Shown here one piece after another: positions 1-10,807 of a DNA stretch of 10,807 nucleotides. The position numbers were made by a program, and so were the translations under genes. Where the stretch lies: assembly GCA_003167305.1 (NCBI GenBank), contig PMTP01000095.1:8000-18806 (forward strand), given 5' to 3'. The stretch's first letter is position 1, and each line of letters starts with the position of its first letter. Under the pieces are notes generated by a model. The model ran no database searches. It had not been told where the DNA came from and was given only the letters and a program-made list of their open reading frames with translations. Source of the DNA: Acidobacteriaceae bacterium. GTDB lineage: Bacteria; Acidobacteriota; Terriglobia; Terriglobales; Acidobacteriaceae.

Positions 1-2
1 TG

Positions 3-86
3 AAGCCTGCGCTGCCGGCCGGCGAGTTGGTGCGGGTGCGCGTGGAAGAGACAGAGAACAACTTTTTTGAGTGCGAGGGCGAGTGA
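3..86 (+). CDS. C-terminal end of an upstream gene (5' end outside the window)
   Basis: An open frame enters the window and ends at TGA 84-86, giving 27 residues that end in NNFFECEGE. The piece is rich in alternating hydrophobic and charged residues ([10 protein letters not shown]), which reads as a beta-strand pair. It faintly resembles the end of a TRAM domain, as found at the C-terminus of MiaB/RimO-type radical SAM methylthiotransferases. That resemblance is weak and I do not name the gene. It lies 37 bases before the chosen folE start on the same strand, so the two may be co-transcribed. Confidence 0.4.
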
Positions 87-123
87 ACGGCGCCCGATTC
101 CCCAGGGCGGAAGGATGAGGACC

Positions 124-756
124 ATGGCACAGCCAATTGCGATGAGCAAGGCGATTCATCGGGCAGCGGAGATCGACGAAGGCATCAGCGGATTCAGCAC
201 CGAGGAGATCATCCGCGAGATTCTGCGCCGCCTGGGCGAAGACCCCAGCCGCGACGGCCTGCAGGCCACGCCGGAGCGCGTCGAGAAGTCGATGGGCTTC
301 CTCACCAAGGGCTACCGCGAGAATCCGGCCGAAATCCTGCGCGGTGCGCTCTTTGACGAGGACTACGACGAGATGGTCATCGTAAAGGACATCGAGATCT
401 TCTCGCTCTGCGAGCATCATATGCTGCCCTTCTTCGGCAAGGTGCATGTGGCCTATGTCCCCAAAGGCAAAGTGATTGGTCTCAGCAAGATACCGCGATT
501 AGTTGAAGTCTTTGCTCGCCGTTTGCAGATTCAAGAGCGGCTCACCCGGCAGATCGCCGACGCCATTCAGGATGCAATCAAGCCGCAGGGCGTCGGAGTG
601 GTGATCGAGGCGCGCCACCTGTGCATGATGATGCGCGGCATCGAGAAGCAGCACTCATCCACAGTGACCTCGGCGATGCTAGGCTGCTTCCGCCAGAAGG
701 AAACTCGCCTGGAGTTCTTATCGCTGGTCCGCCAGCCAGCTAACGGTGGTATATAA
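124..756 (+). CDS. folE: GTP cyclohydrolase I
   Basis: This enzyme converts GTP to 7,8-dihydroneopterin triphosphate, the first step of tetrahydrofolate synthesis (and a source of other pterins) in the cytoplasm. From ATG 124 the product has 210 residues, normal for the family. The zinc and active-site signature CEHHMLPF begins at Cys96, with His98 and His99. The second metal motif, RHLCMMMRG, gives His165 and Cys167, followed by the conserved [12 protein letters not shown] segment. All ligands expected of the zinc-type FolE (as opposed to the cambialistic FolE2) are present. The start at 124 has AAGG at 111-114 with 9-base spacing. ATG 115 and TTG 67 are also in frame, but TTG 67 would overlap the preceding gene, and ATG 115 has only a GGGCGG four bases away. 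A repeat-containing spacer follows before truB. Confidence 0.97.
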
Positions 757-780
757 GCTCCGTGTGGTGGTGTGTAAGTT

Positions 781-832
781 GGGTGCCCCATCCTTTCGCG
801 TTCTTGGCGAACGGTGGGAGACCACGAACCTC
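781..832 (+). repeat. Interspersed palindromic repeat, copy 1 (folE-truB spacer)
   Basis: The element starts with GGGTGCCCCA (781-790) and ends with ACCACGAACCTC (821-832). Between them is a hairpin CGTTC-ttggc-GAACG (799-813), and outside it CCCA and TGGG can pair. The same head (one mismatch) and the identical 12-base tail recur at 10487-10532 around a different hairpin. Two copies about 9.7 kb apart, both intergenic, mark this as an interspersed REP-like element rather than a gene-specific regulator. It fills most of the 104-base folE-truB gap, so it may also affect readthrough or mRNA stability there; that is inference. Confidence 0.6.
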
Positions 833-860
833 AACTGGCCTGGTCAGATAAAGTGAAGTA

Positions 861-1751
861 GTGAACGGGCTTCTCGTCATCGACAAACCGGCCGGCATGA
901 CCAGCCACGATGTGGTCTATCGCCTGCGCAAGATCACCGGCGAGCGATCCATCGGCCATCTGGGCACGCTGGACCCCATGGCCACCGGCGTTTTGCCCAT
1001 GCTGCTGGGCAAGTTCACCCGCCTGGCGCAGTACTTCTCCTCGGCGGAAAAATCCTACATCGGAACGATCCGCTTCGGCTTCGCCACCGACACCTACGAC
1101 GCCGAGGGCGAGCCTGCCGGGCCCGACCGCTCCGCGGTTTTGGACCCTCCGTTGTCGTTGGAGAGGATACAGGCTGCAGCCGCCCGCTTTCACGGCGAGA
1201 TGGAGCAGATGCCGCCGTCGTTTTCCGCCAAGAAAATTGCCGGCAAGCCCGCCTACAAGCTGGCCCGCGAGGGCAAGCCGGTGGAGCTGAAGGTCGCCAC
1301 GGTCTATATTGCCTCGTTTGAAATCACCGCGCTGGACGGGGCCGAAGCCAGCTTCACAATGAGCATCAGCGCCGGGGGTTATGTGCGCTCGGTGGCTCAC
1401 GAGCTGGGCCAGGATTTGGGCTGTGGTGCGCACCTGAGCAGCCTGCGCCGCACCCAGGCCGGAGTCTTCACGCTGGACGGCGCGCATACGCTGGAAGAAT
1501 TAGCCCCACTCACTGGCAACGTCGAAGCGCTGGAGGCACTCTGCCTCCATCCGCGCAACCTGCTGCCGGAGATGCCCTCCGTCACCGGCGACGAGCTGGC
1601 CCTCGGACGGCTGCGCAACGGCGCGCAGGCCAACCTGCCGGAGTTTTCCTCGGCGTCGCTGGTCAAAGTCTTTGCCGGCCAGCGCGAGCTGGTGGGAATC
1701 GCCAAACGCGTAGCCGGAACGCTCTTTCAGCCGGTCGTAGTGATGGGTTGA
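861..1751 (+). CDS. truB: tRNA pseudouridine(55) synthase TruB
   Basis: TruB isomerises U55 in the T-psi-C loop of most elongator tRNAs and acts as a tRNA chaperone. The 296-residue product begins MNGLLVIDKPAGMTSHDVV, the classic family N-terminus, which fixes the GTG start at 861 even though the Shine-Dalgarno sequence is poor. The catalytic aspartate is Asp38 in the motif GHLGTLDPMATGVLP. Further family blocks follow: the SAKK..GKPAYKLAREG region and GGYVRSVAHELG, which contact the base and stabilise the fold. Residues from about 230 onward form a C-terminal extension with a short RNA-binding, PUA-like character. Its stop lies seven bases from the stop of the convergent serine hydrolase, leaving no room for a separate terminator. 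In many bacteria truB sits next to rbfA or ribF; neither is visible here. Confidence 0.97.
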   Translation: MNGLLVIDKPAGMTSHDVVYRLRKITGERSIGHLGTLDPMATGVLPMLLGKFTRLAQYFSSAEKSYIGTIRFGFATDTYDAEGEPAGPDRSAVLDPPLSLERIQAAAARFHGEMEQMPPSFSAKKIAGKPAYKLAREGKPVELKVATVYIASFEITALDGAEASFTMSISAGGYVRSVAHELGQDLGCGAHLSSLRRTQAGVFTLDGAHTLEELAPLTGNVEALEALCLHPRNLLPEMPSVTGDELALGRLRNGAQANLPEFSSASLVKVFAGQRELVGIAKRVAGTLFQPVVVMG

Positions 1752-1758
1752 AGGCTGC

Positions 1759-3174
1759 CTAATTTCCCGCCTTGGATTGGTTGACGCGGACCGCCGGAAA
1801 CTCCCTGCCGCCCATTTTTATCAGGATCTGGTTCACGCCGCCCTTTTCGTCAACGATGAATCGGACCTCGGGGATCGTGTCGTTGAAGTAGAATTCCGTC
1901 TCCGATGTAGCAATCATGCCGAACGGCGTCGGCTGCCCGGTGCTTAACATATACAGCTTGCCGTTGCGCAGGGTGATCTTGATTGCCATCGGACCTAGCT
2001 GGTAATCGCCCACATAGCGAGCCAATACATTTTCGGCCGGATGTACAATCGCGCGCTCCACGGGAACCGCGTACGTCGCTCCGAACAGGATCGCGGTCAC
2101 GTCCTGCGCCACGGCGTCCGTGTTCAGTGTTTCGAAGTTGCCGAGCACGATCACCGTTGCGTCGTCATCCGGATAGCGCTCGAATTTGGAAACGAAGCCG
2201 CCGATCCATCCTCCATGGCCCACATATTTGTGCCCGAACTTATCCCCAATCATCCATCCGTAGCCGTACTCCGCCTCAAGCGGGAAGGGCGGCGGTGCGC
2301 TCCAATGGCCGTAGGCGGTCCAGGCCTTGGCCTTGATGGCGGCTGAGAACAGCTTGTCCGACTTGAGGGCGCGGTCGAACTTGTAGAGGTCGTCCACGGT
2401 GGAGCGTAAGGCCCCAGCGGCGCCTGCTCCCGCTGCGTCTTCCTGGCCGGCGTTGATGATCGTCTCGCCGTCGAATTTATAGCCATTGGCGCGGTGAGGA
2501 ACCAGCGGCGTCGCGTGGTCGAAGGCTGTGTTCGTCATGCCCGCCGGCCCAAGGATATTTTTCTGAAGATAATCCTCGTAGGATTGTTCGCTGACCTTTT
2601 CAATCACCCTGCCCAGCAGGATGTATCCGGAGTTGCTATAGCGCAATACCTCGCCGGGCTGGCTTACCAGCGGCTTATCGGCGTATTCCTTGAGGGCATT
2701 CTCCACATGCAGTGGGTTGTCCAGCTCGCCGTAGGCTTTGGCGTTGGTAAACTCCGGCATGCCGGATTTATGGCAAAGCAACTGATGGATGGTGATGGCA
2801 TTCCAGGCCTGCGGAAAGTCGGGAATGTACTTGACCACCGGATCACCGACTTTGAGCAGACCCCGCTCTTCCAGTTGCAGAATGCTGAGCGCGGTAAACG
2901 ATTTGGTGATGGATCCAATGCGGAAGACGGTCTCCGGGGTGTTGGGCGCACTCAGCTCGAAGTTTGCCATGCCGTAGCCCTTGCGCAGGAGAATCTTGTC
3001 ATCCTTGGCGATCAGCACAGCTCCGGAAAAGCGGCCCTGTTTTGCCCAGGTGCTCAAATAAGCATCGGCCTTAGCGGCCACATCCTGGCCTGCCGCCAAA
3101 CCAGTCACACACAGCATCAAAGCGGCGCTTGCAAGCAAAAGTCGTCCTATACGCATCATGGTCTTGCCCCACAT
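1759..3174 (-). CDS. Secreted serine hydrolase, beta-lactamase/penicillin-binding-protein fold (class C-like)
   Basis: The product has 471 residues. It begins with an export signal (MRIGRLLLASAALMLCVTGLAAG, positive start, hydrophobic core, small residues near the cut), so it acts in the periplasm or outside. The class C beta-lactamase/DD-peptidase active site is complete: SITK (Ser88, Lys91), YSN (Tyr179, Asn181) and HGG (320-322) in place of KTG. QLLCHKSGMP is the usual conserved block after the nucleophile. A C-terminal beta-rich region (about 385-465, beginning RYVGDYQL) resembles the DUF3471/lipocalin-like appendage of many such esterases. Families with this layout include esterases, D-aminopeptidases and peptidoglycan-related hydrolases; the substrate cannot be told from sequence. 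An alternative start at ATG 3159 (MMRIG) has GGGG seven bases upstream and gives a tidier signal peptide. It lies 63 bases downstream of tesA on the same strand and could share its transcript. Confidence 0.9.
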   Translation of the reverse strand: MWGKTMMRIGRLLLASAALMLCVTGLAAGQDVAAKADAYLSTWAKQGRFSGAVLIAKDDKILLRKGYGMANFELSAPNTPETVFRIGSITKSFTALSILQLEERGLLKVGDPVVKYIPDFPQAWNAITIHQLLCHKSGMPEFTNAKAYGELDNPLHVENALKEYADKPLVSQPGEVLRYSNSGYILLGRVIEKVSEQSYEDYLQKNILGPAGMTNTAFDHATPLVPHRANGYKFDGETIINAGQEDAAGAGAAGALRSTVDDLYKFDRALKSDKLFSAAIKAKAWTAYGHWSAPPPFPLEAEYGYGWMIGDKFGHKYVGHGGWIGGFVSKFERYPDDDATVIVLGNFETLNTDAVAQDVTAILFGATYAVPVERAIVHPAENVLARYVGDYQLGPMAIKITLRNGKLYMLSTGQPTPFGMIATSETEFYFNDTIPEVRFIVDEKGGVNQILIKMGGREFPAVRVNQSKAGN

Positions 3175-3237
3175 TCTTGAAGTGGTAGAGGATACGGAGA
3201 GGCCAGCCGTTTGGTTCCTATTAGTTTGCCGGAATGG

Positions 3238-3870
3238 TCATTTTGTTGTTTTCTTCAACAAGGGGGTGAGAACCGGCAGCAGCGTCCGCGCGATGATCTC
3301 GGACCCTTTGGCGGTGGGATGGATGCCGTCGGGCTGAATCGTGCCGGGGACGTTGATCAGGTCCTTGTAGAGCATGGGCACGAAGGCGACGTGGTGTTTC
3401 GCCGTCAGGTCGCGGAAGAGCTGCTCGAAGGCTTGAATGTACTCCCGGCCGTAATTCGGCGGCAGAGTGATTCCGGCCAGCACAACATTGAGGTGGGCGT
3501 TTTCGAGCGCTGTCAACACGGCGTCGAGGTTGCGGCGGGTCTGCTCCAGGGGAAGTCCGCGCAGGCCGTCGTTGCCGCCGAATTCGACGATGACCACCGC
3601 GGGATGCAGCTCCAGAATGGCACGCAAACCGGCGACGGCGTCCTTGGTGGTGGCGCCGCTGGTTCCCTGGTTGTTCACCTGGAAGTGGTAGCCGCGCGCG
3701 TCCAGGTCGCGTTGCAGCGCGTCGGGAAAGGATTGGCCTGCGTCGAGGCCGTGGCCGGCGGTGATGCTGTCGCCGTAGCAGACAAGGAGCGGCCGGCTGG
3801 CGGCCCAAAGCGGGCCACCGGCCAGAAGAATCAATCCCAGCGAAACAAACAGAGAGCGGCGAACGTACAC
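3238..3870 (-). CDS. tesA: Arylesterase / SGNH-type (GDSL) thioesterase, TesA family
   Basis: This is a 210-residue secreted hydrolase of esters, thioesters and possibly lysophospholipids. A signal peptide (about 1-24, ending GGPLWA before ASRPLL) sends it to the periplasm. All four SGNH blocks are visible: GDSITAGH with nucleophile Ser35, NQGTSG around residues 67-72 (oxyanion Gly), GGND with Asn100, and DGIHP with the catalytic pair Asp181 and His184. The length matches E. coli TesA (about 208 residues). The start is GTG 3870; no ATG lies in frame and the ribosome-binding site is weak. It is transcribed away from the YbbA/YbbP-type ABC genes across a 200-base spacer, as in E. coli. That context supports naming it TesA rather than an unrelated GDSL lipase. 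Confidence 0.93.
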   Translation of the reverse strand: MYVRRSLFVSLGLILLAGGPLWAASRPLLVCYGDSITAGHGLDAGQSFPDALQRDLDARGYHFQVNNQGTSGATTKDAVAGLRAILELHPAVVIVEFGGNDGLRGLPLEQTRRNLDAVLTALENAHLNVVLAGITLPPNYGREYIQAFEQLFRDLTAKHHVAFVPMLYKDLINVPGTIQPDGIHPTAKGSEIIARTLLPVLTPLLKKTTK

Positions 3871-3890
3871 ATGGATAGTGTAGCGAAAAA

Positions 3891-3918
3891 CAGGGAACAG
3901 GGATCAGGGGTCAGGGTG
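3891..3918. repeat. Tandem heptamer repeat (CAGGGNN x4)
   Basis: Four heptamers stand head to tail: CAGGGAA, CAGGGAT, CAGGGGT and CAGGGTG. They begin 21 bases upstream of the tesA start codon, in the tesA/ybbA divergent spacer. The 11-mer AGGGGTCAGGG at 3906-3916 recurs at 4051-4061, just before ybbA, where it supplies part of the ribosome-binding site. A seven-base period outside coding sequence suggests replication slippage or a recruited repeat family. Its location inside a promoter region makes length variation potentially regulatory (inference). Confidence 0.7.
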
Positions 3919-3979
3919 ATTGAGTTGCTTAGAATCTGCGCAGCTTGACTGGCCGCGAAATAGCACGATCCGGAGGGAG

Positions 3980-4035
3980 GCGGGGGTTTCAACCCCCGCA
4001 CAATGCCGACAGAATCAATGTGGGGCTTTAGCCCC
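3980..4035. repeat. Two adjacent perfect palindromes, REP-like pair
   Basis: The first is GCGGGGGTT-tc-AACCCCCGC (3980-3999), a perfect nine-base inverted repeat. The second is GGGGCT-tt-AGCCCC (4022-4035), a perfect six-base one. The 22-base spacer contains CAATG twice. Two GC-rich hairpins in tandem within an intergenic spacer are typical of REP/BIME-like elements mobilised by RAYT (Y1-type) transposases. No such transposase is present in the window. A terminator role is unlikely, because no U-tract follows and the flanking genes diverge from this point. Confidence 0.7.
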
Positions 4036-4057
4036 GGAGAGAATCACATTAGGGGTC

Positions 4058-4064
4058 AGGGAGG
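4058..4064 (+). promoter_or_regulatory. Ribosome-binding site deciding the TTG start of ybbA
   Basis: AGGGAGG lies six bases before TTG 4071. This strong site is what makes the unusual TTG the best start; no ATG precedes the Walker A region in a suitable place. It overlaps the second copy of the AGGGGTCAGGG repeat (4051-4061). Confidence 0.65.
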
Positions 4065-4070
4065 CCGGGA

Positions 4071-4794
<724 letters not shown>

Positions 4795-4802
<8 letters not shown>

Positions 4803-7356
4803 GCGCGCATTGAGTTGGAAGCGGGCCGGGGCCATCGGCTGGCGTGATCTGCGCTCCGCTCCGGGCAAGTTCGGCTTTGTCGTGCTCTCGGTAGCCGTGG
4901 GAGTGGCGGCGCTGGTGGGCGTGCGCGGCTTCAGCGACAGCTTTCGACGGACTCTGGGCACGGAGGCTCGCTCGCTGATGGCCGGCGATCTGAGCGCGCG
5001 CATCTTTCATGAGCCGACGGCCGAGGAAAGCGGCAAAATTGCGGCGATTGCCAGGCAGGGCGGACTGCGCACAACTTGGGTGACGGAAACGGTTTCGATG
5101 GCTTCAGCGCCGCCTGACCCGGTTCCATTGCTGGTTTCGCTCAAAGCCGTGGACCCAGCCGAATACCCGTACTACGGCGCGGCCGAACTGGAGCCAGCGA
5201 TGAGCCTGCCGCAGGCTTTGGACGGCGACTCGGCGGTGGTGGCCGAGGAGTTTCTCATCCGGCTGAATGCGCGGGTGGGGCAGACGTTGCGGCTGGGCGG
5301 TAGGGATTTCAGAATTGCCGCAGTGCTGCGCCAGGAGCCGGACCGCCTCAATGCGGCGGCGGCGATCGGGCCGAGGGTGATGATCTCGCAGGCGGCGTTG
5401 CAGCGCACCGGCCTGATCGTTACCGGCAGCCGGGCCACCCAGCGGCTGCTGATGAAGCTGCCGCCGCAAGCCGATCCCGTCGCTCTGCGCAAGCAGGTGG
5501 AGGCGGCGCTGCCCGACGCGCAGGTGATGGACTACCGCGAGGGCAATCCGGGGCTGAGCCAGGGGCTGGACAACGCCACCGCGATTCTCAGCCTGATCTG
5601 CCTCGTGGCGATGGTGCTGGGAGCGATTGGCGTGGCCATGGCCATGCACGCCCACCTCGAACAGCGCATGGACATGCTGGCCATTTTGAAGGCCGTGGGC
5701 GCAAGTTCCGGCGATCTGCTGCGCATCTTCTTGTTGCAAACATTAGGTCTGGGCTTGGCCGGAGGTCTCGTCGGAGTGGCCGCCGGCGTGGGCGTGATGG
5801 CCGCGCTGCCGACTGTCTTCGGCCATCTGCTGCCGGTTCAGGCGCAGCTCGAATTTCCCTGGCGCTCGGTCGCGGCGGGGCTGGGAACGGGCCTGCTGAC
5901 CACGTTGCTCTTCTGCCTGCCTCCGTTGTTGGACGTACGCGCGATCCGCCCTGTACTGGTGCTGCGCAGGCTCGTCGAGCAGGGGCCGGAGGGCTTCGTC
6001 GCCTGGCTGGCGAGCTGGTGGGCGCGCCGCCTGCAACTCGGCCTTGCAGCTTTGGTCGTCGCCGCGCTGGGCGGAATCGCCTGGGCGCTCTCGGATTCGG
6101 CCAAAGTGGGTGGCTGGTTCGCTCTTCTTTTCTCGATTGCCTTAGTCGTTCTGTTGATCATGGCCGCCATAACGCTATGGGTTCTGCGCTTTCTGCTCAA
6201 CCGCGTGCGCCTGCGCCTGCCTTCGTTCCTGCGCCACGGGCTGGCAAATCTCTATCGTCCCGGCAACCAGTCGGCCGCGGTCATGGCTGCGCTGGGCACC
6301 GGCGTCATGCTCATTCTGACGGTTTATCTGATGCAGGCGTCGCTCTTGCGCGATCTGCGCGAGACCGCCTCGCCCAAGCTGCCCAATGTCTTTCTGATCG
6401 ACGTGACGACCGATGAGGTTGCCGGCATCAAGGACTTCTTTGCGCGTCAGTCCGGAGTGAGCCAGGCCTTGGAGTTGATGCCGGTGGTGACCGGGCGTTT
6501 TGTCTCTCTCAACGGCAAGCCGCTGGACCAACTGAAGGAGCAGCATTTTCCCCGGCGAATGCTGGAGAATGCCCAGATGACCTGGGCCGACGCGCCTCCA
6601 TCGGGCGATAAAGTGACGCAGGGCAAGTGGTGGACCGCGGCGGACGCATCCGAGTTGGCCATCGGCGAAGGCGTAGCCCAGCGGCTGCATCTGGGCCTGG
6701 GCTCGGCGGTCGAACTGGAAGTGGGCGGTGTTACGCGCGCGCTGAAGGTGGCCGCCATCTACCGCGCCGACGGAAATCATCTGGGCGGGCGCATCGAGTT
6801 TGTGATGCCTTCCGGCCTGCTCCAGAACCAGACAGCCACCTGGTACGGCGGCGCGCACGTCGATCCCCGTCAGGTGGCGGCGATGGAGCGGGCGCTCTTC
6901 GCGGCTTATCCCACGGTCACGGTGATCAATCTGGCCGACGTGCTGGGGCGCATTGAGAGCGTCGTCGATCAGGTCACCTTTGTCGTGCGCTTCCTGGCCG
7001 GCTTCTCCATCTTCGCCGGGCTGATGATCCTTGCCTCCAGTATCGCCAGCACGCGCTTCCGCCGGATGCGCGAGGCGGTCGTGCTGAAGACGCTCGGTGC
7101 CACGCGGATGCGGATCGTCCGCACCTTCAGCGTCGAGTTCAGCGTCCTCGGCCTGCTGGCCGGCTCGGTCGGCGTCCTCTTCGCCAATCTGCTCACGCGG
7201 GTACTGCTGCGCAAACTGGAAGTCGGCTTCCATATCGAATGGCGCGCCACCATGATTGCGCTCATCGGCACGGCGCTTCTGGCCACGGCCACCGGCTGGA
7301 TCGCCAGCTACCGCATCCTTGGCCTGCGCCCGCTGGAAGTGCTGCGCGAGGAATAG
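4795..7356 (+). CDS. ybbP: ABC transporter permease, FtsX fold, YbbP type (type VII)
   Basis: An 853-residue inner-membrane protein. I see about ten hydrophobic helices: near 25-45, 264-285, 310-337, 362-380, 414-432, 440-466, 492-515, 726-750, 778-800 and 818-836. Two large periplasmic parts lie at about 46-260 and 516-725. The two FtsX-type cores carry matching coupling-helix motifs: MDMLAILKAVGAS (about 292-304) and REAVVLKTLGAT (about 759-770). Each is followed by a helix and a C-terminal LRPLEVL-type or IRPVLVL segment. This duplicated ten-helix layout is that of YbbP (E. coli about 804 residues), not of four-helix LolC/MacB. ATG 4795 overlaps the ATPase stop and has GAGGA five bases upstream; an upstream TTG 4720 in the same frame is inside ybbA and rejected. 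It likely extracts or moves hydrophobic molecules for the secreted TesA-type hydrolase. Confidence 0.92.
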
Positions 7357-7501
7357 AAACGGCCCTTATGAGAAAATAGAAGAGTGGAACCTCTCCGGGG
7401 CTGTGCGCACGCATGCGCCCCAAACCTTTGATTCAACCCCAGCTTCACTTCGCCCGCGCGGCTGTACCCTCGCCGCGCCTTAAATAGGAACAAGAAAAAG
7501 A
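7357..7501 (+). other. 145-base spacer/leader before the ABC-F gene, with one GC-rich inverted repeat
   Basis: GGGGC (7397-7401) and GCCCC (7417-7421) can pair around a 15-base segment that itself contains TGCG/CGCA. No T-run follows, so a rho-independent terminator is poorly supported. AGGAA at 7486-7490 is the likely ribosome-binding site for the ABC-F gene, with a long 11-base spacing. I see no convincing sigma-70 promoter and no leader peptide beyond a trivial three-codon ATG AGA AAA TAG. Confidence 0.3.
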
Positions 7502-9115
7502 ATGATCAGTGTCAGCAATGTGACCATGCGCTACGGCGCCAAGGTGCTCTTCGAGGACGTGAGCGTCGCCTTTATCCCCGGCCGCCGCTACGGCCTCACC
7601 GGCCCCAACGGCTCCGGCAAAACCACCTTCATGAAAATCCTCACCGGCGAGCTCGACGCGCAGAAGGGCAACGTCGTCCGCCCGCGCAAGCTCGGAGTGC
7701 TCCGCCAAGACCAGTTTGCCTTTGACGCCTATCGCGTCATCGACACCGTCATCATGGGCAACAAGCCCCTCTGGGCTGCCCTCGAAGAACGAGATCGGAT
7801 TTATGAGAAGCCTGAGCTTTCTGACGCCGACGGCATGCGCCTCGGCGAGCTCGAAGGCGTCATCGGCGACGAGGACGGCTACACCGCCGAGTCCGACGCC
7901 GCCGTCCTCCTCGACGGCCTCGACATTCCTGAAGCCCTCCACGAGCGCCGCATGGGCGAGGTGCAGGGCGGCCAGAAGATGCGTGTCCTGCTCGCCCAGG
8001 CTCTCTTCGGCAAGCCGCAGGCCTTGCTCCTCGACGAGCCCACCAACTACCTCGATCTCGACTCCGTCCACTGGCTCCAGGACTTCCTCCAGAGCTACGA
8101 CGGCACGCTGATCGCCATCTCCCACGACCGCCACTTCCTCAATAGCGTCACCACCCACACCGCCGACATCGATTACGAAACCATCATCACCTATACAGGC
8201 GGTTACGACGAGATGGTGATGGCCAAGACGCAGATCCGCTCCACCCTCGAATCGCAGAGCGCCCAGCGCGAAAAGAAGATCGCCCAGCTCAACGACTTCA
8301 TCGCCCGCTTCTCCGCCGGAACCCGCTCCTCCCAGGTCACCAGCCGCCGCAAGGAGGTCGAGCGCCTGCAAACAAACGACCTCGCCCGCTCCAACATCGC
8401 CCGCCCCTACATCCGTTTCGACCAGGTGCGCCCCAGCGGCAAGCACGTCCTCGAATTCAAGCACATCACCAAAATCTACGGCGGCCACAAGGTCATTGAC
8501 GCCTTCAGCGCCAACCTCCTGCGCGGCGAACACATCTGCCTGATGGGCCGCAACGGGGCAGGGAAGACCACGCTTCTCAAGAGCCTCCTCGCGAACTATC
8601 CCGGCCTCGCCGACAAGGACTTCGAGTTAGACTCGGGTTCCGTCTTCTGGGGCCACGAGGCGCAGATCGGCTACTTCCCCCAGGACGTAGGCGCAACCCT
8701 AAGTAGTTCGAAAAATGACAACGGCCTTACCGTTTGCGAGTGGCTCCATCGCTGGAAGCCCGACGCCCACGTGGAAGACATCCGAGGCATTTTGGGCCAG
8801 ATGCTCTTCAGCGGCGAAGAGGGCGACAAGCAAACCAAAGCTCTCAGCGGCGGCGAACAGGCCCGCCTCGCCTTCTGCAAGCTCATCCTCACCAAGCCCA
8901 ACATCCTGATCTTTGACGAGCCCACCAACCACCTGGACCTGGAAGCCATCAACGCCCTGAACATAGCCCTCCAGCGCTACGAAGGCACGGTCCTGTTAGT
9001 CACCCACGACCACGATTTAATTGACGAAGTAGCCACCCGCCTCTGGGTCTTCCACGAAGACGGCATCGAAGACTTCCAAGGCCCATACGCTGAGTGGAAA
9101 GGCAAGCATAACTGA
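7502..9115 (+). CDS. ybiT: ABC-F family ATPase, YbiT type (ribosome-associated translation factor)
   Basis: A soluble 537-residue protein with two ATP-binding cassettes and no membrane segment. ABC-F proteins bind the ribosomal E site and act on stalled or difficult translation. Cassette 1 has Walker A GPNGSGKT (34-41), a degenerate signature VQGGQKMRV (from 154) and Walker B LLLDEP (Glu179). Cassette 2 has Walker A GRNGAGKT (349-356), a canonical LSGGEQARLAF (from 448) and Walker B LIFDEP (Glu473). Between them, about 240-310, is the charged helical P-site-tRNA-interaction linker. Length and the weakened first signature fit the YbiT subgroup rather than EttA (EttA-specific arm absent) or Uup (no C-terminal coiled coil). 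It starts at ATG 7502 and appears to be its own unit after ybbP. It is the last core gene before base composition drops. Confidence 0.93.
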   Translation: MISVSNVTMRYGAKVLFEDVSVAFIPGRRYGLTGPNGSGKTTFMKILTGELDAQKGNVVRPRKLGVLRQDQFAFDAYRVIDTVIMGNKPLWAALEERDRIYEKPELSDADGMRLGELEGVIGDEDGYTAESDAAVLLDGLDIPEALHERRMGEVQGGQKMRVLLAQALFGKPQALLLDEPTNYLDLDSVHWLQDFLQSYDGTLIAISHDRHFLNSVTTHTADIDYETIITYTGGYDEMVMAKTQIRSTLESQSAQREKKIAQLNDFIARFSAGTRSSQVTSRRKEVERLQTNDLARSNIARPYIRFDQVRPSGKHVLEFKHITKIYGGHKVIDAFSANLLRGEHICLMGRNGAGKTTLLKSLLANYPGLADKDFELDSGSVFWGHEAQIGYFPQDVGATLSSSKNDNGLTVCEWLHRWKPDAHVEDIRGILGQMLFSGEEGDKQTKALSGGEQARLAFCKLILTKPNILIFDEPTNHLDLEAINALNIALQRYEGTVLLVTHDHDLIDEVATRLWVFHEDGIEDFQGPYAEWKGKHN

Positions 9116-9255: not shown

Positions 9256-9900
9256 ATGAAGAATCAATGGCCCTCTATCGATGTTCGCCTCGGAGTGCCG
9301 GGGTCAGAGCGGGAGATCGCGACACGCGGCCAACTGGTCAATGCTGTGCTTGACACAGGATCAAGTATGACCTGCATTAAGGAGGCGCTAGCCAGGCAAA
9401 TCTATAGTTCCAGCGGATCTGCATATACACCAATTTGGAATGTGCCGATTGCTGTCCCAGGTGGCTCGCTCGAAACCCACGCGGTTCCGTTACTGATCGC
9501 CCTCGACTTGGAAGACGGAGAAGCCGTTCACTCACTAATCAATTGTGTCATTATGGAGGGATCCTTTTCTCAGTTACTAATAGGAAACGATATTCTATCG
9601 AATTTGGCGCTTGACCTAAAGATCGATTACAAAAATCGGACGCTATCCCTTAAGCGATACACGTGGGACCGTTTCGAAGACGATGTAGCCTCCGCTTATC
9701 GAGCACTTGGCGCAACTGTCAGTCGAAATCTCAACTTGGCGGGATTTCAGATCGACCTGCTCGCCCAAGAAGAAACGCAATCAAAGCAGAAACTTCGCTT
9801 GGCAGTTGAATGTAAAATACTACAAGGACCCAATAGGGAATCGAATCGTCAACGATTTTGCACGGGTAGTTGCAACACTCAAGCAAGCGAACCTAGCTGA
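9256..9900 (+). CDS. Retropepsin-like aspartic protease fused to the N-terminal half of an Mrr-type nuclease (5' part of a frameshifted gene)
   Basis: As read, 214 residues from ATG 9256. Residues 1-135 form a retropepsin-like fold: a single-domain aspartic protease motif AVLDTGSSMTC (catalytic Asp33) and, near 108-114, LIGNDIL, the second conserved turn of retroviral-type proteases. Such enzymes work as dimers. From about 138, WDRFEDDVASAYRALG begins a PD-(D/E)xK nuclease of the Mrr type, with Asp166 in GFQIDLLAQ and Glu185-Cys-Lys187 in AVECK. Directly after this lysine the reading frame stops resembling the family; the remaining 27 residues are out-of-frame noise. The correct continuation lies one base on. 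GGAG at 9241-9244 (11-base spacing) supports ATG 9256; the frame is open back to TTG 9139, and ATG 9217 and 9235 are alternatives. Base composition is clearly lower in GC than the genes before it. Confidence 0.7.
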   Translation: MKNQWPSIDVRLGVPGSEREIATRGQLVNAVLDTGSSMTCIKEALARQIYSSSGSAYTPIWNVPIAVPGGSLETHAVPLLIALDLEDGEAVHSLINCVIMEGSFSQLLIGNDILSNLALDLKIDYKNRTLSLKRYTWDRFEDDVASAYRALGATVSRNLNLAGFQIDLLAQEETQSKQKLRLAVECKILQGPNRESNRQRFCTGSCNTQASEPS

Positions 9901-10462
9901 TCGAGGTGTAATAATCTCCCATGCAGGGTTCACGCAGGATGCCACACTGGTCGCGACGGCATCGGGCGTTGACCTCCTTACTCTCGATGACCTTCGCCAA
10001 CAGTCTGCAGGGTCATCTAAGCAGAACCCACCCCAATCCCTCCCGGAGCCAGCTACAACCCTCACTACCCCGAAAGCAAAAGAAGCCTACCAGTGCTTTG
10101 TTCTAATGCCATTCGAGCCTGAACTCGACGACGTGTACCATCTCGGGATTCGTGAGGCGGTCAACTCATTAGGCGGGGTCTGCCAAAGGGCCGATGAGAT
10201 CCAGTACTTGGGCGGAATCATTGAGAAGATTTATGACGCGATCCGCAGTGCGGATGTCATCGTTGCTGAAGTGACGCGACCAAACCCCAACGTGTTTTAT
10301 GAGGTTGGCTTTGCTCACGCATTATCGAAGCCGGTCGTTCTGATTACCCGCGACATTCAGACTTCCCCCTTCGATCTTCGTGGGCACAATCACATCATCT
10401 ACAAGAGCATCGTCGATCTGCGAGGCCAACTTGGCGCAATGCTAACTCAGCTTTTCCGCTAA
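9707..10462 (+). CDS. C-terminal half of the Mrr-type nuclease plus nucleoside-deoxyribosyltransferase-like (DRHyd) domain (3' part of a frameshifted gene)
   Basis: The frame is open from TTG 9707, but meaningful sequence begins at 9818 (YYKDPIGNR), where it continues the nuclease: VNDFARVVATLKQA, then GVIISHAGFTQDA and GVDLLTLDDL, the usual end of Mrr-type domains. A flexible Ser/Pro/Thr linker follows, about residues 98-126 of this frame. The last 120 residues form a DRHyd/nucleoside 2-deoxyribosyltransferase-like domain: CFVLMPFEPELDDVY, ADEIQYLGGIIEKIYDAI, SADVIVAEVT and NPNVFYEVGFAHAL (probable catalytic Glu199), then PFDLRGH. DRHyd domains cut N-glycosidic bonds or bind nucleotides and recur in bacterial immune systems. 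This frame has no credible start codon of its own (only TTG 9707 and 9806, both inside the 5' frame), so it is the continuation of the preceding frame. Joined at 9816/9818, the protein would be 401 residues. Confidence 0.7.
   Translation: MAQLSVEISTWRDFRSTCSPKKKRNQSRNFAWQLNVKYYKDPIGNRIVNDFARVVATLKQANLADRGVIISHAGFTQDATLVATASGVDLLTLDDLRQQSAGSSKQNPPQSLPEPATTLTTPKAKEAYQCFVLMPFEPELDDVYHLGIREAVNSLGGVCQRADEIQYLGGIIEKIYDAIRSADVIVAEVTRPNPNVFYEVGFAHALSKPVVLITRDIQTSPFDLRGHNHIIYKSIVDLRGQLGAMLTQLFR
9811..9820 (+). other. Frameshift site in an A4 run splitting the three-domain gene
   Basis: TGT AAA A TAC: with three A's the reading is ECK-YYK, continuous with the family on both sides; with four it diverts. 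The extra base (within 9814-9817) lies immediately after the catalytic lysine codon. It may be a true inactivating insertion, an assembly or sequencing error, or a recoding site. A run of only four A's is short for polymerase slippage, so I favour mutation or error. Confidence 0.75.
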
Positions 10463-10486
10463 GCTTTCAGTCAACACGCGACGGGC

Positions 10487-10532
10487 GGGTGGCCCAGGTC
10501 TGGATTTTCAGACCGGGGATACCACGAACCTC
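10487..10532 (+). repeat. Interspersed palindromic repeat, copy 2
   Basis: Head GGGTGGCCCA (10487-10496), central hairpin GGTCTG-gatttt-CAGACC (10497-10514), then GGGGAT and tail ACCACGAACCTC (10521-10532). GTGG and CCC of the head can pair with GGG and CCAC of the tail side, giving a long nested hairpin. Head and tail match the folE-truB copy (781-832) while the central hairpin differs. The extended head GGGCGGGTGGCC (10483-10494) recurs at 10763-10774. It lies 25 bases after the stop of the DRHyd frame and could act as a transcript end; no T-run is present. Confidence 0.6.
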
Positions 10533-10582: not shown

Positions 10583-10762
10583 CTACTTGCCGCCGCGTTG
10601 AACCGTGCGCAGAGAGGTCTTCAATTCCGCAACCTTTTCCGCGCACCAAAGTTTGATTAGAGACTGGTAGGGCACATCCAGTCTCCGCGCATGGTGGCGA
10701 ATGGTGTTCAGAACATCTTCAGGCATGCGCAGAGAGATGGTTTCGGTGGAGGGCCGCAACTT
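10583..10762 (-). pseudogene. CopG/BrnA-like antitoxin fragment (ribbon-helix-helix), missing its N-terminus
   Basis: Read on the - strand, codons 10762 to 10586 give about 59 residues followed by TAG (10585-10583). The centre, RPSTETISLRMPEDVLNTI, and RRLDVPYQSLIKLWCAEKV are characteristic of the small CopG/BrnA-type antitoxins that bind DNA by a ribbon-helix-helix and neutralise a BrnT-like or related RNase toxin. The family normally has 30-40 more residues ahead of RPST, usually with a DW motif. Here that part is missing: the frame meets TGA at 10798-10796, and no ATG or GTG precedes the core (only TTG 10759, or ATG 10726 inside the domain). The end of similarity coincides with the start of a repeat copy at 10763. 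The stretch before 10583 (10533-10582) holds nothing I recognise. No partner toxin is in the window; it could lie beyond the right edge. Confidence 0.6.
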
Positions 10763-10807
10763 GGGCGGGTGGCCACATTTGACCAGTCCCAGGTCTCAGA
10801 ATCGAGA
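10763..10807 (+). repeat. Interspersed palindromic repeat, copy 3 (runs off the window)
   Basis: GGGCGGGTGGCC (10763-10774) is identical to 10483-10494. Further on, CCCAGGTCTC (10788-10797) and AGAATC lead into GAGA at the window edge, so GGTCTC...GAGA(CC) would be a hairpin like the GGTCTG...CAGACC of copy 2, completed just outside. A 13-base insertion-like segment (10775-10787) separates the head from the CCCAGGTCT block when compared with copy 2. It abuts the truncated antitoxin. Confidence 0.5.

Follow-up and report, generated by a model that had tools for sequence, protein, structure and literature searches.

The gene at positions 9256-10462 of the window (the whole stretch of DNA analysed here, 10,807 nt, contig PMTP01000095.1 positions 8,000-18,806 of assembly GCA_003167305.1, an Acidobacteriaceae bacterium; C119:8000-18806 in our labelling) encodes, in order, a retropepsin-like domain, an Mrr-type PD-(D/E)xK domain and a DRHyd domain, split over two overlapping frames. 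It is best explained, with a probability that we put at roughly one in two, as a broken representative of a rare family of conflict effectors made as single chains, in which an Mrr-DRHyd core would be governed by an exchangeable N-terminal input, here a dimerising retropepsin-like module. The working core would comprise an Mrr-type nuclease or DNA-binding domain, which would detect or cut foreign DNA, and a DRHyd nucleotide-splitting domain (of the N-glycosidase or NADase type), through which the core would act by killing or signalling, and the N-terminal module would decide when the core acts. The retropepsin-like domain would make the chain dimeric and pass on the trigger; in lineages that bear the catalytic motif it could also cleave, and across the family some protease activity has probably been kept in most lineages. 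The source genome is a 2.48 Mb draft in 207 contigs, and is 80% complete.

The first of the two frames, ORF1, begins with an ATG at 9256 and runs on the forward strand to a stop ending at 9900; it encodes the retropepsin-like domain (9256-9666, +) and the N-terminal part of the Mrr domain, its last 27 residues being out of frame. ORF1 matches gag-asp_proteas (PF13975) above the Pfam cut-off (E 1.2e-6), and the first half of Mrr_cat (PF04471) at E 0.0013, which alone lies below it. A catalytic-type Asp33 (codon 9352-9354) sits within DTGSS, and LIGNDIL lies close to the end of the domain. The first part of the Mrr domain (9652-9816, +) carries D167 and E185-C-K187. Its second part (9815-9997, +), which contains ISHAGFTQDA, belongs to the second ORF in the other frame (9707-10462, +, stop ending at 10462), whose residues up to base 9814 do not match the family. 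This second ORF matches the second half of Mrr_cat at 3.2e-6 and Nuc_deoxyrib_tr (PF05014) at 2.1e-7; the latter match and an alignment with DNPH1/Rcl delimit the DRHyd domain (10088-10459, +), in which are found FVLMPF and NPNVFYEVGFAHAL with the invariant Glu349. Window residues Asp33, Glu185 and Glu349 correspond to residues 40, 192 and 356 of the intact relative P0002, less 7. The motifs named in the initial annotation of this DNA are found where it had placed them, its three domain assignments are borne out by Pfam matches and by intact relatives, and the 401-residue single chain that it proposed is what results when the two frames are joined, with intact one-frame relatives known.

The single-chain fusion of retropepsin-like, Mrr and DRHyd domains is real. 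A protein search with the second ORF returned 999 proteins at E 1e-3, and among the best 120 examined P0003 (402 aa) is encoded in one frame and shares 94% identity with the second ORF across 87% of that ORF, others likewise being in one frame. From these 120 we chose 58 full-length proteins with an alignable N-terminal domain (alignment A2). The selection passed over P0070 and P0083, both lacking the retropepsin-like part, along with proteins of other N-terminal types and entries that were short or truncated. Searching with A2 as a profile (8000 candidates scored, best 120 examined) gave 139 proteins at E 1e-10, and P0121 and P0122 were added, making 60 full-length protein clusters aligned with all three domains in one frame. 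Three domain profiles of our own, applied to 175 fetched proteins, identified 64 with the order retropepsin-Mrr-DRHyd (60 full-length, 4 N-truncated), 66 in which Mrr-DRHyd is preceded by at most 80 residues (a count that takes in fragments as well as P0123, whose winged helix is short), 22 in which it stands behind another, longer N-terminus, and 23 with DRHyd only. The 58 rows of A2 match these profiles by construction, since A2 seeds them; independent support comes from Pfam, which at E 0.01 finds Mrr_cat and Nuc_deoxyrib_tr in 58/58 rows each, gag-asp_proteas in 38/58 and RVP in 30/58. It had been envisaged at the outset that homologues might always keep the two frames as separate, unrelated genes; the homologues instead have the same domain order in one frame, and the existence of intact fusions rules out two unrelated neighbouring genes. 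As such, the initial observation is right, and is more general than one locus.

By listed source, most relatives are metagenome entries (among the best 120 of 999 and the best 120 of 139). Scans of genome contigs, which relied on three short patterns per scan and can overlook members, gave no three-domain copy besides that of the window's own genome in 396 genomes of the phylum (31 with any match) or in 399 of the class (40 with any match), and a scan of this kind using ORF1 gave no relative. Domain profiles applied to loci L002-L134 revealed no three-domain copy in the 80 genome-contig loci kept out of 181, in 30 phylum-genome loci other than the window's own, or in 23 viral loci, and neither plasmids (70 records matched) nor phages (33 matched) held a place covering 80% of the query P0005. 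As a protein query, the retropepsin part alone retrieved 3 proteins, all of the retropepsin-Mrr-DRHyd family, in a search that hardly surveys stand-alone or differently fused versions.

The conservation of the core is in keeping with a conflict effector. The D, E and K of the Mrr domain are each invariant (60/60), and Mrr_cat is matched by all 58 rows, as a whole in P0002 (8.1e-15) and split between two frames in the window, which places the domain among the Mrr-type PD-(D/E)xK nucleases. The Asn and Glu of the DRHyd domain are likewise each present in 60/60, and PF05014 in 58/58 together with the nucleophile Glu assigns this domain to the DRHyd/nucleoside deoxyribosyltransferase-like group. 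The PADLOC model of a TIR-type effector matches 58/58 and that of the ZorD Mrr-like nuclease 55/58, the latter over its Mrr part; the CAP12/Pycsar TIR model of Pfam matches 1/58 only, and weakly. Against the effector reading, NCBIfam gives no match near the cut-off for the two window ORFs and the best PADLOC matches span single domains, so that no known anti-phage system in either collection is matched over most of its length, but only single-domain stretches of larger models.

The closest solved relatives of the last domain by sequence are DNPH1/Rcl, with an alignment that is free of gaps around the catalytic Glu, and one may ask whether the protein is a DNPH1-type enzyme acting in the nucleotide pool or in base hydrolysis, outside defence, with the other domains as regulators. 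We consider this improbable. In DNPH1, Asp80 sits 24 residues before Glu104, according to the available part of PMC10483697. The family has Ile (58/60) or Val (2/60) at the position of Asp80 and Asn (59/60) or Asp (1/60) at that of Ser98, as judged from a sequence alignment only; none of the 60 combines Asp80 and Ser98 with Glu104 in that alignment, and identity as a DNPH1 enzyme is rejected on this ground. Some solved DNPH1/Rcl chains have Ala at the Asp80 place, and these we take to be engineered mutants. An Mrr nuclease with all of its catalytic residues would also be odd in an enzyme of this type, and the patchy spread (1/396 phylum and 1/399 class genomes, the window's own both times) fits it poorly. 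TIR, DRHyd and SLOG domains are described, in the accessible portion of PMC9503650, as a single clade whose members bind nucleotides or process them, NADases and makers of signals included, and an older proposal, in what is available of PMC3710099, is that domains of the TIR/DRHyd kind strip bases from DNA. We infer that nucleotide processing, NADase or signal-making activity, or DNA base removal, would be favoured over house-cleaning of the DNPH1 type.

The N-terminal domain is retropepsin-like (clan AA, family A2-type) by sequence profile, with the PF13975 and RVP matches given above. When 14 N-domains are combined into a profile, three solved retropepsins, HTLV protease (7.9e-6), ASPRV1 (about 1.1e-4) and DDI2 (5.7e-4), are retrieved, whereas the single window sequence reaches only 0.56 against HTLV protease. 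The catalytic motif D-[TS]-G is present in ORF1 of the window (as DTG) and in 43/60 relatives and absent in 17/60, of which 3 are also without the Asp, itself present in 57/60. On a quick tree built from the Mrr and DRHyd domains, with 58 rows and several long branches, at least 10 changes of the motif label are required, of which well-supported branches force 5, and the label is clustered by descent (2/500 shuffles as low). Motif-less N-domains match a profile made from motif-bearing rows alone (16/16 of A2, plus P0121 and P0122, at E 1.3e-13 or better); among the controls for that profile 0/32 shuffled or reversed sequences were listed, and 1/10 unrelated N-domains, only at E 9.6. These matches argue that losing the motif does not erase the fold signature, and the pattern across the alignment suggests that most lineages hold the motif under selection and some do without it. 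Both features, repeated change of D-[TS]-G and persistence of the fold signature, speak for an input module.

The initial annotation saw in the protease the driving mechanism. On this account a dimeric protease would cut its own chain, for example in the variable linker between Mrr and DRHyd, or a partner, and would so release or activate the effector. Part of the evidence is favourable: the Asp is one of the best-kept columns of the retropepsin-like domain (58-row alignment; domain mean 54%), although this is the fastest-changing domain, with a median identity to P0002 of 30% where the remaining two domains reach 65% and 66% (55 rows), and the linker is the least conserved part of all (median 14%, 55 rows). 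Retention of the Asp in 57/60 within so variable a domain argues that catalysis matters in most lineages, where the domain may still cleave something, and counts against a purely input-type role. However, 17/60 relatives are without D-[TS]-G, 3 of them without the Asp, and the same core occurs without any protease. A mechanism driven by the protease is possible, but it is not the one that we favour, and we think it rather unlikely. A more elaborate version, an immune protein with its three domains in series, in which foreign DNA or a phage product would trigger the protease, self-cleavage would free the DRHyd killer domain and some lineages would keep the dimer switch only, strikes us as doubtful; were it true, the family would be the bacterial equivalent of death effectors gated by a protease, with a retropepsin as that protease. 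For the input-module reading, dimerisation is the relevant property. Family A2 retropepsins are homodimers, according to the part of PMC11957791 that was available, and the retropepsin-like domain would therefore be expected to bring two cores together; by this analogy the retropepsin-like version probably dimerises.

A further argument for the input-module reading is that the Mrr-DRHyd core is also met on its own, or preceded by a winged helix, DUF2513, TIR_2 or a ~200-residue domain of uncharacterised type, and we read its N-terminal slot as one that takes exchangeable input modules. A Pfam scan of the N-termini of 10 other relatives identified a winged helix in P0123 (HTH_24, 4.4e-7), DUF2513 in P0087 (3.3e-21) and TIR_2 in P0153 (4.5e-8), whose Mrr_cat match is weak (9.8e-4). 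The scan gave no match in the ~200-residue N-termini of P0124, P0130 and P0132, in the N-termini of P0071, P0100 and P0083, or in the ~60 residues of P0133. In a Thermoplasmatota draft genome (locus L002) the ~200-residue domain is a separate gene (7378-7995, +) that overlaps the start of the Mrr-DRHyd gene and shares 56% identity with its fused counterpart in P0124, an arrangement that both a true split and a frameshift fit, and the next gene after Mrr-DRHyd has a HEPN_Swt1 domain (8.8e-10). Upstream at L003 are a SEC-C protein and a match to DUF2971 that falls below cut-off, and downstream come a cytochrome P450 and a decarboxylase; at L160 six ORFs near the Mrr-DRHyd gene showed nothing of note, one of them (5268-6482) overlapping the matched stretch on the other strand. 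The core would in this way act as a hub, combined with no fewer than four further N-terminal modules, which suggests where triggers may be sought. Some minor features of these N-termini were also apparent. P0153, with the order TIR_2, Mrr-like, DRHyd, places a nuclease-type domain between two nucleotide-splitting folds that are related to each other; the N-termini of P0071 and P0100 have, by eye only, a likeness to a nucleotidyl cyclase domain, Pfam having no match there; and the ~200-residue domain (N-termini of P0124-P0132) has, by eye, a conserved C-x-x-C.

The reading frame of the window gene is broken inside the Mrr domain near base 9816, directly behind E-C-K. Up to this base ORF1 shows 0 mismatches with P0002 in 187 residues, and from base 9815 to the end the second frame shows 1 mismatch in 215. 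The split falls immediately after the ECK of the nuclease, for which reason the window copy is probably dead. It could be argued that the break does not represent decay, and is an assembly error, or that the gene functions in two parts or through a programmed frameshift; the near identity of the intact P0002 (one mismatch) and the incompleteness of the draft genome would agree with such a view. Nevertheless, P0001, which has four differences over 251 residues, crosses the same break, which argues for a real common change and makes a lone assembly error less likely, and the split parts the ECK of the nuclease from the remainder of its fold. Neither P0001 nor P0002 has a listed source, and P0001 may accordingly stem from the same population as the window genome. 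On balance we regard the explanations other than decay as somewhat unlikely.

Several known systems resemble parts of this protein. With Mrr-type restriction nucleases and Zorya ZorD the family shares the Mrr_cat match, the D/E/K residues and the ZorD model match; the ZorD helicase is absent from the family chain, and the fusion is instead to DRHyd and a retropepsin-like domain. Conflict-system DRHyd/TIR-like domains (in the part of PMC9503650 available) and the DUF4062 TIR-like NADases (as far as the accessible text of PMC13174449 describes them) resemble the family in its nucleoside-deoxyribosyltransferase-type domain, its invariant Glu and its match to the PADLOC TIR-type model; a difference is the single, weak match to the CAP12/Pycsar TIR model. 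DNPH1/Rcl has the best PDB sequence matches and an aligned Glu, but differs at its Asp80 and Ser98 positions. To our knowledge, few bacterial retropepsins have a known role. By description rather than by sequence, the nearest precedent for the retropepsin-like module is RimB-RimK: RimB, a bacterial retropepsin, not only cleaves but also stimulates RimK, and in some bacteria the two are fused (per the available portion of PMC11957791), which lends support to a module that regulates its partner within a multi-domain protein, although the partner domains are different. AbiJ-type N-terminal domains are swapped onto Mrr nucleases and nucleoside deoxyribosyltransferases (NDT) in abortive-infection proteins, following the same principle of exchangeable N-terminal modules, yet NDT and Mrr are there in separate fusions, at least in the part of PMC3710099 available. 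Among the literature matches listed, from a search with subscription journals mostly outside it, no title or abstract concerned a retropepsin-Mrr-DRHyd fusion. The family couples a retropepsin to a nuclease and a nucleotide-splitting domain, and since its catalytic motif has changed repeatedly, protease and pseudo-protease versions of one effector can be compared directly.

The locus itself is a variable cargo site of low GC, which accords with the effector reading. The GC content is 0.51 in the gene versus 0.62 in window positions 1-9100, so that the low-GC setting remarked upon initially is confirmed. The closest ABC-F protein in 10 further genomes of the genus, that of G399, shows 98% identity; the flanks there are collinear with the window, but other genes lie between the ABC-F gene and the BrkB gene, a 551-residue ORF among them, which identifies the site as variable. 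This ORF (L147:1778-3433, +), at the same site in a same-genus genome, is possibly an alternative cargo gene, whose 539-residue version has no Pfam match and which by eye has a coiled coil and membrane segments. The antitoxin debris previously noted is also real: the C-terminal half of a CopG-type antitoxin lies at window 10586-10786 (-), with an in-frame stop upstream (CopG_antitoxin profile 36-78 of 79, E 1.7e-12). A defence island, however, was not borne out and is rejected for this locus. Ten ORFs scanned downstream matched household families or had no match, a defence family being the best match of none, and nothing of the kind lies close by except an IS200-like transposase and the antitoxin remnant; this counts against the effector reading, in a comparison that covers one three-domain locus, the window's, with its upstream genes mostly judged by eye. 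Directly behind the window end is a gap of two N (L136:808-809), and the upstream side of the antitoxin remnant is therefore not contiguous sequence. The IS200-like (Y1_Tnp) transposase ORF (L136:722-1366, -, 2.9e-9) is accompanied by repeats of ~48 bases (window 10483-10530; L136:1460-1507; L136:2709-2752) that recur in the same-genus loci L147 and L148, and the two together look, by eye, like a REP-associated transposase with its REP elements.
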